DNA of 39,010 bases, from positions 1 to 39,010 of the IMG/VR virus record IMGVR_UViG_3300038309_000064. One strand, written 5' to 3'. The notes below the pieces were generated by a model. The model did not search any database, had not been told where the DNA came from, and worked only from the letters and a program-made list of their open reading frames with translations. The number at the start of each line of letters is the position of its first letter. Positions within the stretch are counted from its first letter, which is position 1. This DNA is from a virus. Of the stretch, positions 6,022 through 22,578 are shown piece after piece. Position numbers and translations under genes: made by a program.

Positions 6022-6072
6022 AAAAAAACCGACAAAAATTACAATAATTTAATATTGCTCTTTTATCGGTTT
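6022..6072 (-). terminator. terminator-like hairpin in the portal leader
   Basis: On the minus strand AAACCGA (6072-6066) pairs with TCGGTTT (6032-6026); AAAA/TTTT and an apical CAATA/TATTG stem continue it. Four further T follow, then at once the portal ATG at 6021. It lies about 30-80 bases after the putative transcription start, so it may attenuate late transcription or need antitermination, or it may end messages from the terminase block. Confidence 0.6.
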
Positions 6073-6107
6073 GTCCGCTTGAAGTTTATTTTTTAAATTG
6101 TACTACT

Positions 6108-6136
6108 ATTATAGCACATCTAATCCAACAATGCAA
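6108..6136 (-). promoter_or_regulatory. sigma70-type late promoter with extended -10
   Basis: Minus strand: -35 TTGCAT (6136-6131), 17-bp spacer, -10 TATAAT (6113-6108) with TG one base before it (extended -10). Predicted start near 6101. It would drive portal and the structural genes. The -35 overlaps the end of the small gene 6120-6275. Confidence 0.65.
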
Positions 6137-9280: not shown

Positions 9281-10066
9281 TCATATTGCTATATTTAAAC
9301 TATTTTCTCGGTATCTTATAATTTTATCTCCCTCAATTTCAACGCAATTTCCATTCTGATATTTAAATTTTTTAGCCCCTAAATCCTCTAATGCTATTTT
9401 CCAAAACTCATCTCTACCTTTTAATGCCTGATAATTTCTAGAGTTATTTTTCTTGTTATCTATGATTTTAACTTCGGGAGTAAACACTATCTTATTTTTA
9501 ACCCTGTAGAAGAAGTGCTGGTGTTCTCTTAATTTTAATTCATTATGCCATAAAGTATCTTCAAAAACAATTTCTTTTGCTAGGAAAAAATTTAATACGC
9601 ACCCAGTTTTTTTAAATTTAATTCCATTATAAAATTCATATAAATCCCAATCCGGTATCTGATAAATAGTTTCAAATTCTTTTTTAAAATAATGCTCAAA
9701 TTTTAATCTTCTGCCATCTTTTATCACTGCTCCCCCGATAATATCCCCAACATCTACTAATGCCAACATTTTTTCGATAACTGTATCATGAGTAAAAAGA
9801 AAATCATCCTCTAATATTAATTTATATGGCTGTTTTGTTTCTTTAACTAAAACATTTCTAGCAAAAGATAATCCGCAATCATAAGGCAATGGGAAAACTC
9901 TCAAATTCCTATCTTTCCATTTCATGTAAAACTCTGTATTAATGTCCTTGCTTTGATCCGCTATTGTTATTATCGCATTCGGATAATATACAAAAATGCT
10001 ATCTAGAAGTTCTTCCAATAGATTATACCGATCCATTGTCGTAATTAGAAAATCAACTTTTTCCAT
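9281..10066 (-). CDS. glycosyltransferase, GT-A fold, beta-GalNAc-transferase-like
   Basis: 261 aa. GT2-like fold: LITTMDRYNLLEELLDSI (7-24), then PYDCGLSFARN (61-71) and the metal/nucleotide motif EDDF (86-89), then WHNELKLREHQHFFYRV (about 193-209) where the Glu-His pair matches the catalytic-base region of beta-1,4-GalNAc transferases (B4GALNT/GT12-like, EDDF or DDDF plus GEHxxFF). No signal or membrane segment. It is the last of four sugar genes; an HNH gene separates it from the epimerase. Together they suggest building of a GalNAc/Gal-containing glycan; acceptor unknown (virion protein, host surface or DNA). Confidence 0.82.
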   Translation of the reverse strand: MEKVDFLITTMDRYNLLEELLDSIFVYYPNAIITIADQSKDINTEFYMKWKDRNLRVFPLPYDCGLSFARNVLVKETKQPYKLILEDDFLFTHDTVIEKMLALVDVGDIIGGAVIKDGRRLKFEHYFKKEFETIYQIPDWDLYEFYNGIKFKKTGCVLNFFLAKEIVFEDTLWHNELKLREHQHFFYRVKNKIVFTPEVKIIDNKKNNSRNYQALKGRDEFWKIALEDLGAKKFKYQNGNCVEIEGDKIIRYRENSLNIAI

Positions 10067-14147: not shown

Positions 14148-14564
14148 CTTTATTAGCCCATTTTCTAGGAGATAGATTAGCATTTTAGCCCCCATATTTG
14201 GTTCTCGCATAAGTCTTATAATTCCCAATCCTCCAATTATTCCAGTTCCCTTATAATCAAAAACCTCTCCGTATGACTTATAAATCAAATCCCAACCGTA
14301 TTTTTCAAAAGCTTTAAATAACATCTCCCCTATTTCACTAGAGAGAAATGCTGAATAAACCTTTTCCTCCGTTCCTTCTATATAACGCTGAGTCGCATAA
14401 CTCAATTTAATCTCTTTTTTACTATCATTTATGATATTTCTATACCGCTTAGAATTAAAGTCTTTTATTCTATGCCAATAAAACTCACTCTCTTGAGGAA
14501 CTCCTAGCTCCTCCAACCTCCTTGATAGTTTTAAATTTGTTAGATGTTTTTCTAGGTTTTTCAT
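14136..14564 (-). CDS. conserved phage protein of unknown function
   Basis: 142 aa. The opening KHLTNLKLSRRLEELGVPQESEFYW and the later FLSSEIGEMLFKAFEKYG belong to a phage protein family seen beside replication genes in many siphoviruses (pattern: L-x-LS-x-x-L-x-x-LG-x-x-Q-x-S-x-FYW ... AELGEML); its function is unknown. No membrane segment. The poly-A leader upstream points to an out-of-frame ATG at 14574, ten bases before this start at 14564. Confidence 0.62.
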   Translation of the reverse strand: MKNLEKHLTNLKLSRRLEELGVPQESEFYWHRIKDFNSKRYRNIINDSKKEIKLSYATQRYIEGTEEKVYSAFLSSEIGEMLFKAFEKYGWDLIYKSYGEVFDYKGTGIIGGLGIIRLMREPNMGAKMLIYLLENGLIKIIN

Positions 14565-20906: not shown

Positions 20907-21248
20907 TTAATTTAGTTGATTATGAGAATTTTCTAAGGCTATCTCTTTGTCAATATCTGATATTTTTTTATTTTTTAATCTATATTCTATGTTTTTTTTA
21001 TCTCCAGCAAACAATTTCCATTCGCCTTGCACAAATATCCTTGTTAAGTCCTTACTCATTAAATCTCCTCCACAATGTGCTTCAGTTTCAGCGTCTCCAA
21101 TACTTTCAACTGAACTTAGATTTATCATATCTCCGCTTTTTAATCCTATTAAGCCAGTTTTACCATTAGCTATAAGAATTTGTAGTTTCTTAAATTCCTC
21201 ATCGGAAATTAAAAACTCTGTTTTACTCATCATTTTTATTGATTTCAT
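20907..21248 (-). CDS. 113-aa unknown protein
   Basis: ATG at 21248 overlaps the organizer stop (ATGA); the ATG at M7 is another start. Sequence FLISDEEFKKLQILIANGKT, GLKSGDMINLSSVESIGDAE and TRIFVQGEWKLFAGDKKNIE suggests a small alpha/beta fold; several phage proteins of replication regions have this 'lI.ng..gl..l.sG..inl.si.sI' pattern, function unknown. Co-translated with the replisome organizer. Confidence 0.52.
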   Translation of the reverse strand: MKSIKMMSKTEFLISDEEFKKLQILIANGKTGLIGLKSGDMINLSSVESIGDAETEAHCGGDLMSKDLTRIFVQGEWKLFAGDKKNIEYRLKNKKISDIDKEIALENSHNQLN

Positions 21249-21949
21249 AATTGTACAAAATTAGATTTATTATTCTTTTGATTATCAAAATATATTTTAA
21301 ATTGAGCCAGCTTCTCTTTCATTTGGTAAGGGGTAGTAGCGACTGGGGCATAAGGCTTTCCTTGAACTGCTACCACTGCTTCAGCCATTCTAATAACATT
21401 TTCTTTTTTATATTTTTTAATTAACCATTCGCAAGCAGATCTGCTTGTCTTATTTTGGAAATTAAGTGCTGGATTTATCTTATAAAATATATTCATAATT
21501 TCATTAACTCCAGCGATCGCTAGATCGCTAGTATTTATATTCTTATCATTCTTATTCTTCTTATCATTCTTGTTTGTGTTATTTTGATGTTCTTTTGATG
21601 TTACTTTGATGTTATTTTGATGTTCTTTTTCTTGGTAGTCTTTCCAATTTATCACCGTAATAAGCCTAAATTTATTAGTTTTTTGTTGTTCTATTTGATG
21701 TTCTTTTTCGAAAATTTTTAATATTTTTTCGATAGTCGATTCATTAATGCCTGTTTCATCGCTTAATTTCTTTCTCCCGGTAATAAATTGCCCCTCTTTT
21801 ATTACTATAATTTCATTATTCCACATAAATTCGGATCCTTTATGATTTGCTTTTAATAGAATATGCAACCATAAATGGATATATTTAGAATTCTTATAAT
21901 ATCCTTTTTCAATTATTCGCCTATGTATTTTTACCCAACCATTATTCAT
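21245..21949 (-). CDS. replisome organizer / replication initiator (lambda O-like role)
   Basis: 234 aa. Residues 1-105 are the phage replisome-organizer winged helix (GWVKIHRRIIEKGYY, then ILLKANHK, IKEGQFITGRKKLSDETGI, RLITVINWKDYQ). Residues about 108-142 are a low-complexity Asn/Lys linker encoding four DNA iterons, and 145-225 a DnaD-like helical tail (NEIMNIFYKINPALNF, SACEWLIKKY, EAVVAVQGKPYAP). Such proteins bind the origin and load the host helicase. No helicase loader is evident in the window. First gene after the HNH in the early operon. Confidence 0.82.
   Translation of the reverse strand: MNNGWVKIHRRIIEKGYYKNSKYIHLWLHILLKANHKGSEFMWNNEIIVIKEGQFITGRKKLSDETGINESTIEKILKIFEKEHQIEQQKTNKFRLITVINWKDYQEKEHQNNIKVTSKEHQNNTNKNDKKNKNDKNINTSDLAIAGVNEIMNIFYKINPALNFQNKTSRSACEWLIKKYKKENVIRMAEAVVAVQGKPYAPVATTPYQMKEKLAQFKIYFDNQKNNKSNFVQL
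21541..21624. other. candidate replication origin: four 11-bp iterons plus pyrimidine tract
   Basis: TTTGATGTT occurs at 21583, 21594, 21605 and 21616, exactly 11 bp apart, and once more at 21694. The period is not a multiple of three, so the repeat is selected at DNA level, not as a peptide repeat. It adjoins a tract (21541-21571) that is almost all pyrimidine on the plus strand. Iterons inside the initiator gene next to a strand-biased AT-rich tract match lambda ori. Confidence 0.65.
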
Positions 21950-22375: not shown

Positions 22376-22384
22376 TTAATTGCG

Positions 22385-22483
22385 AAACCAAAAGCCCAGA
22401 GTATCATCGCAAAATGACCCACTCTGGGCTTTAAGTCCAACAATTCAGTTGTATTTTGCGATGATTTCATTAGGTCTTGGTTT
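22385..22483 (-). ncRNA. structured leader with two mutually exclusive long stems
   Basis: Stem A: 22391-22402 with 22421-22432, 12 perfect pairs. Stem B: 13 bases of its loop (22403-22415) pair perfectly with 22453-22465. Outer stem: 22385-22391 with 22477-22483, 7 pairs. A 4-bp hairpin (22440-22443 with 22449-22452) lies between. A and B cross, with no linker between two of the strands, so they cannot both form fully: a two-state switch or a partial pseudoknot. On the gene strand stem A ends in TTTT. It lies 18-116 bases after the predicted start of the promoter at 22508-22536 and ends 10 bases before the HNH gene. Confidence 0.7.
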
Positions 22484-22507: not shown

Positions 22508-22536
22508 ATTGTATCATGATATAAAATAAAAGTAAA
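22508..22536 (-). promoter_or_regulatory. sigma70 promoter of the early operon
   Basis: Minus strand TTTACT (22536-22531), 17 bp, TACAAT (22513-22508), start near 22501. Carries the palindrome ATCATGAT (22513-22520) as does the promoter at 20692. Preceded by the late terminator, so early and late transcripts are insulated. Confidence 0.7.
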
Positions 22537-22555
22537 GACTAAGTTATCCCCAATT

Positions 22556-22578
22556 AAAAAGCCGATAATTAACCGACT
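22556..22578 (-). terminator. rho-independent terminator after the lysis genes
   Basis: Minus strand: AGTCG (22578-22574) with CGGCT (22564-22560), including one G-U pair, then a run of T (22560-22556). It separates the lysis block from the early promoter. Confidence 0.6.

Follow-up and report, generated by a model that had tools for sequence, protein, structure and literature searches.

The window analyzed here is a virus record of 39,010 bases with 33% G+C, in which every gene lies on the minus strand. A terminator-like hairpin at the end of the upstream (late) operon is followed by a predicted promoter, a predicted transcription start at about 22501, a structured leader, and the genes for an HNH endonuclease and a DnaD-like helicase loader (Table 1); the placement after a promoter and before the replication genes, claimed in an earlier sequence-only reading of this DNA, is thus borne out. 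The ORFs of the window mostly lack a Shine-Dalgarno site and show A/T-rich upstream stretches, and its promoters look sigma-70-like. A DnaA-box-like 9-mer, TTATCCCCA, is located just upstream of the leader (22544-22552), and an exact TTATCCACA 9-mer is found about 50 nt upstream of arm B in two other phages treated below (L035 and L044); across the three genomes, the distance of such 9-mers to B is 50-90 nt. They perhaps mark an origin region. Across the window genome, DnaA-box matches are not in excess but at background level.

Table 1. Features of the leader and its surroundings in the window (arms and helices as read on the gene strand).
Feature	Sequence	Position	Strand	Basis or remark
Terminator-like hairpin, end of upstream (late) operon		22560-22578	-	sequence
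Predicted promoter, extended -10 (TG)	TTTACT-17-TACAAT	22508-22536	-	consensus match 9 of 12
Arm A	AAACCAAGACCUA	22471-22483	-	partner 22385-22398, most of C' plus the T-rich tail
Arm B	AUCAUCGCAAAAU	22453-22465	-	perfect 13-bp complement of B'
Arm C	AAAGCCCAGAGU	22421-22432	-	5' arm of the terminator-like hairpin
Inner helix	UCAU/AUGA	22404-22417 (22414-22417/22404-22407)	-	closes apical loop UUUGCG (22408-22413); sequence, kissing scan
Arm B'	AUUUUGCGAUGAU	22403-22415	-	within the loop of C:C'
Arm C'	ACUCUGGGCUUU	22391-22402	-	3' arm of the terminator-like hairpin
T-rich tail, imperfect U-tract	CTTTTGGTTTC	22384-22394	-	sequence; 6 T in 8
First gene, HNH endonuclease, 131 aa		21980-22375	-	start codon 15 nt past C'; no Shine-Dalgarno
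Second gene, DnaD-like helicase loader		21245-21949	-	

Along the gene strand, the leader (22483-22385) is arranged in the order A-B-C-B'-C', with linkers of 20 nt between B and C, 5 nt between C and B', and 0 nt between B' and C'. The sequence-only reading had described a perfect 12-bp hairpin whose loop is complementary over 13 bases to a site beyond it, in A-B-A-B strand order with no spacer on one side; C:C' (12 bp) and B:B' (13 bp) are indeed perfect complements in that order, and the gap between hairpin and site, given there as 21 bases, is 20. The outer stem of 7 bp was likewise recovered as the perfect core of arm A (22477-22483/22385-22391), which overlaps the 12-bp stem by one base. 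The C:C' stem continues directly into CTTTTGGTTT, and the complete terminator-like hairpin (HP2) reads AAAGCCCAGAGU-GGG-UCAU-[UUUGCG]-AUGA-U-ACUCUGGGCUUU. CGCAAA (22455-22460), which forms the core of B, matches the apical loop as its complement, and the match grows to 13 bp once the inner helix opens; RNAfold extends this helix differently, with a 4-nt loop. No convincing hairpin surrounds B itself in the window, where the kissing scan gives one of 3 bp only. What goes beyond the first reading is that the partner of B lies in a terminator-like hairpin with a predicted inner helix and apical loop, and that this putative class is recurrent.

The pair is the sole ABAB pair in the 39 kb with both stems of at least 9 bp. 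First-order Markov shuffles contain 0.05 ABAB pairs per window when both stems are required to have at least 10 bp, as compared with 12 and 13 bp here, in agreement with the earlier judgment that both stems are unlikely to arise together by chance. Folding of both strands, which had been suggested as a check, gives structures more stable than those of shuffles (z about -4). Elsewhere in the window, a second AT-rich leader-like structure (6026-6113, minus strand), with interleaved stems of 9 and 12 bp and a T-run, adjoins the start codon of the portal gene; it is weaker and possibly due to chance.

When folding of the growing window transcript is followed, B:B' becomes the best fold once B' is available (-23.3 kcal/mol); by the time the T-run is reached, it is near balance with C:C' (-28.6 vs. 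-27.0 kcal/mol), and afterwards A together with B:B' leads. The predicted pairings of A and B with C'/tail and B' lie within 1.6-5 kcal/mol of C:C'. Besides, a full 13+12 bp pseudoknot is strained by the 13 bp of B:B' and by linkers as short as 5 and 0 nt, so that exclusion is likelier than coexistence in the window. The exclusive states of the first reading fit the window leader, and its two states are probably alternatives. A terminator-like leader hairpin with a T-run, imperfect in the window, stands before the first gene, and the predicted energies allow a mutually exclusive antiterminator structure. Our main reading, to which we assign a probability of roughly 0.55, is that the element acts as a 5'-leader transcription attenuator belonging to a class of kissing-loop (or pseudoknot) leaders; its structure is well supported, and the attenuating function is what we infer from it.

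In such an attenuator, B would capture the loop (B:B') before C' is transcribed, as RNA polymerase moves; in the window, arm A could then also pair with C' and the T-rich tail, the terminator would be blocked, and the polymerase would enter the HNH, DnaD and further replication genes. Were B (or A) occupied, sequestered or released, C:C' would form and transcription would stop, leaving an RNA of roughly 115 nt. HP2 would accordingly be the terminating element and B (with A in the window) its modulator, B:B' presumably favouring readthrough in the window. As the signal, one may think of an antisense RNA, of elongation speed, or of a protein binding to the purine-rich internal loop that most members possess (see below). 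Against an attenuator, the tail in the window is an imperfect U-tract (CUUUUGGUUU), there is no 5'-terminal hairpin, and B begins 36 nt past the predicted transcription start, unlike in most class members.

No alignable relative of the window leader was found by blastn of the region or by exact-pattern scans of viral contigs. The 13-bp pair was matched nowhere in 2.9 million viral contigs, and three matches to the hairpin stem in the same contigs had different loops and were set aside as chance and not relatives. No lambdoid phage was found by blastn of the window region, searches with HNH and DnaD gave distant relatives only, and no such leader was found in the closest relative by portal, the partial contig L025 (58%). 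The endolysin-like gene that precedes the window leader, used as a protein query, led to 68 contigs that were then scanned for interleaved stems. A leader at L035:6926-7007 (stems of 10 and 13 bp; linkers 19, 7, 10) lacks sequence similarity to the window and shows the order late genes, terminator, promoter (TTGCGT-17-TATACT), stems and DnaD-like gene. The nearest genome-contig relative of the L035 DnaD (L266, 63% identical) has its own stems of 8 and 15 bp, with letters that differ from those of L035. In L018, stems of 7 and 12 bp (linkers 21, 8, 7) are followed by a helicase gene, C' entering seven T; relatives of this helicase added the leaders of L109/L110/L112, L142, L131, L133, L172 and others, and the same architecture was also found in L044 and L119. 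The shared plan comprises a promoter, a 5' segment B, a terminator-like hairpin C:C' with a B-complementary loop, a T-run and an ATG, after which replication or other early genes follow. Several leaders whose letters are unrelated can occur in a single genome (three in that of the L018 phage, three in that of hattifnatt9-1). The first reading took the window element for the leader RNA of an early operon that should work as a switch or as a partial pseudoknot; this view gains support from the recurrence of architecture and genomic position in other, unrelated phages. An ABAB pair in L010 was rejected, as it lies in GC-rich DNA and the leader context is absent, and a permissive scan allowing GU pairs and mismatches was dropped as too noisy. 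By eye, further candidate leaders were seen upstream of the helicase in L245, L241, L253 and L257; their loops are longer, or the terminator loop holds an additional hairpin, and the scan settings may not cover the whole class.

Among 496 phage leaders scanned without a T-run criterion, 15 reach a score of at least 40 in the sense orientation and four on the mirror strand, with 0.7 expected in shuffles, and the window ranks second; none of 129 bacterial leaders reaches this score in the same scan. The descriptor took its form from the first hits; identical settings were applied to the shuffle, mirror and bacterial controls. As the 15 leaders include two in the window and one homologous pair (L353/L358), about 12 are independent of the seed. 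In 14 of these 15, at least 5 T occur in the 8 nt after C' (26% at control positions), which makes the hairpin terminator-like, though T-runs had played no part in the selection. Over 1.35 Mb of phage loci, 21 cases of interleaved stems followed by a T-run score at least 40 (two in shuffled and three in reversed sequence), 15 of them located 5-45 nt before an ORF; in a second 1.35 Mb set, mostly whole phage genomes and overlapping the first in part, the count is 10 vs. 1 at a score of at least 44. A general kissing scan was weakly enriched over shuffles (34 vs. 11 at score 70, 12 vs. 4 at score 75) and therefore served for describing the anatomy and not as proof.

Most members have a 5' hairpin (HP1) with B in its loop; B' occupies the apical loop of HP2, below which come an inner helix and an internal loop rich in purines (by eye GGA/GAA, GGA/AAA, GAA/GGA or AGUA/GAA); the two hairpins can thus kiss by 6-8 bp. 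In isolated Flavobacterium phages, B occupies the loop of the 5'-terminal hairpin, resulting in a loop-loop kiss, and for the Flavobacterium and L142 leaders, RNAfold, which takes no account of pseudoknots, predicts the two hairpins, their loops being complementary. A TAnnTTTG promoter element ends a few nucleotides before HP1/B in several Bacteroidota-type phages, so that the structure begins at the RNA 5' end. The window leader has the defining trait of the class, a terminator-like hairpin upstream of a start codon with a loop complementary over at least 6 bp to a 5' segment, and its B does not lie in a 5'-terminal hairpin loop at the transcription start. As the window, L035 and L266 lack a clear HP1, this hairpin defines a subgroup; the window is a variant without the 5' hairpin, whose extra 5' arm A can pair with the terminator 3' arm C'. 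In most members, with B in its own 5'-terminal hairpin, a kiss of 6-8 bp is compatible with the terminator, which it would tune and not exclude. In two unrelated leaders (L357, 40371-40490, and L142), the outer and inner HP2 helices appear to be separated by AGUA/GAA, the signature of a bulged-G (loop E) motif, which suggests a contact, either tertiary or with a protein.

In most members, 11-25 nt separate the end of the structure from the ATG, and the downstream genes are mostly replication genes, as would be expected of a translational operator, that is, a pseudoknot or kiss near the start codon bound by a replication protein repressing its own mRNA; the T4 gene 32 leader works in this manner, a replication protein binding the leader structure and repressing its own mRNA. 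We consider this distinctly unlikely: the architecture is constant across varying genes (HNH, DnaD, helicase, unknown small proteins), the T-run would have no explanation, and the start codon itself is free and not sequestered. The same spacing bears on the idea of a small RNA gene, in which promoter and terminator would yield a trans-acting phage sRNA of 75-110 nt (also forming loop-loop dimers), readthrough into the gene being incidental. The transcription unit is complete (promoter, 5'-end structure, T-run) and complementary loops could pair between molecules, but the fixed distance to the start codon and the different loops of each leader argue for a role in cis, making a small RNA gene very unlikely.

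Resemblance to HK022 has also to be weighed. Its putRNA, of ~70 nt and with two stem-loops, is a phage early leader that suppresses terminators elsewhere, and putL, just downstream of the early promoter PL, acts in cis with no protein (PMC9378689). Put-like elements would stay folded at the 5' end on RNA polymerase and make it resist pausing and downstream terminators, the T-run hairpin being merely part of the fold. The kissing leaders too have two hairpins, are 75-110 nt long and sit mostly at the 5' end; two stem-loops near the early transcript start are found in most members, and not clearly in the window. However, the T-run directly after the second hairpin (14/15) is a terminator requirement, put elements are similar in sequence, with particular residues in common, and their kissing is not described (PMC9378689), whereas no sequence is common to the leaders found here, and one phage can carry three different ones. 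A put-like function is, all in all, unlikely.

Covariation in related phages, suggested as a further check, was positive in the one set of leaders that could be aligned, the window itself having no alignable relative. This set, non-homologous to the window, comprises the leader near gp44 of the Flavobacterium phage hattifnatt9-1 and its homologues in snusmum6-1, morran9-1, FCV-1 and FCOV-S1. In the alignment of the five, 96.7% of cells are paired, and changes on both sides are seen in 14 pairs: five fall in the 8-bp kiss and seven in the outer stem of HP2, and the inner helix and HP1 contribute one each, so that both kiss and hairpin show compensation in this subgroup. The observed values are reached by none of 500 shuffles, and pairing in slid controls does not exceed 46%. 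A covariance model of the five leaders, with the kiss left out, next ranks L109 (E 0.01), L303 (0.014) and L172 (0.05), all of them kissing leaders found independently of the model; under strict filters it had no match in 198 genomes of one bacterial phylum. In a mixed alignment (A2; L186, L187, L192, L210, L212), the hairpin columns are out of register, and changes between L116 and L121 are visible by eye only.

The most improbable of the alternatives is an ordinary inter-operon terminator with chance complementarity, or an element acting at the DNA level (origin or recombination site). The DnaA-box-like 9-mers upstream of B would agree with the latter, but their background-level frequency in the window genome does not. 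With the promoter upstream of it, the hairpin cannot simply end the previous operon, and the strand asymmetry (15 vs. 4 leaders) speaks against this alternative. Chance pairing is excluded by the window shuffles and opposed by the compensatory changes within the kiss of the Flavobacterium set.

As regards known systems, the leaders of the trp, pT181 rep and similar attenuators hold an intrinsic terminator that a competing pairing can prevent from forming, and an attenuator of the type proposed here would resemble them in both respects. In contrast to them, the competing strand would come from the RNA 5' end and target the apical loop of the terminator, neither a leader peptide nor a conserved aptamer was seen, and the arm sequence is unconserved across phages. 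The SAM-II, preQ1 and fluoride riboswitches also place an H-type pseudoknot in the leader, often coupled to a terminator, but no conserved ligand-pocket sequence is present here. In ColE1 RNA I/RNA II and other antisense kissing-loop systems, loop-loop pairing of 6-8 bp controls replication functions; the pairing is similar, but both loops lie in one transcript here, and no antisense gene was identified. The window and class leaders have no Rfam match at gathering thresholds and no sensible one at E<=1, and no description of such a leader class was found in literature searches of incomplete coverage. Alternative pairing around a leader terminator is a known principle; the pairing or kissing of the terminator loop by the 5' end, with unconserved sequence, appears to be a new arrangement.

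It appears fairly probable that an undescribed cis-regulatory leader class is common to phages of several host groups, in many cases located precisely at the 5' end of early transcripts and with up to three per genome, in which a loop-loop or loop-strand pairing of the 5' end with the loop of a terminator-like hairpin is kept and the letters are not. Sequence-based RNA catalogues would miss the class for this reason. Early gene timing in most environmental phages lacks an explanation, and a leader class defined by complementarity and not by sequence would be a widespread regulatory layer; among the isolated Flavobacterium phages, natural phage pairs already supply compensatory mutants. Two annotations overlap such leaders: in L353 (NC_048832; 9441-9477), the helicase gene gp34 is annotated as starting inside the terminator-like hairpin, its true start likely being the ATG at 9477, and in morran9-1 a small ORF (14157-14300) is annotated across the homologous leader.
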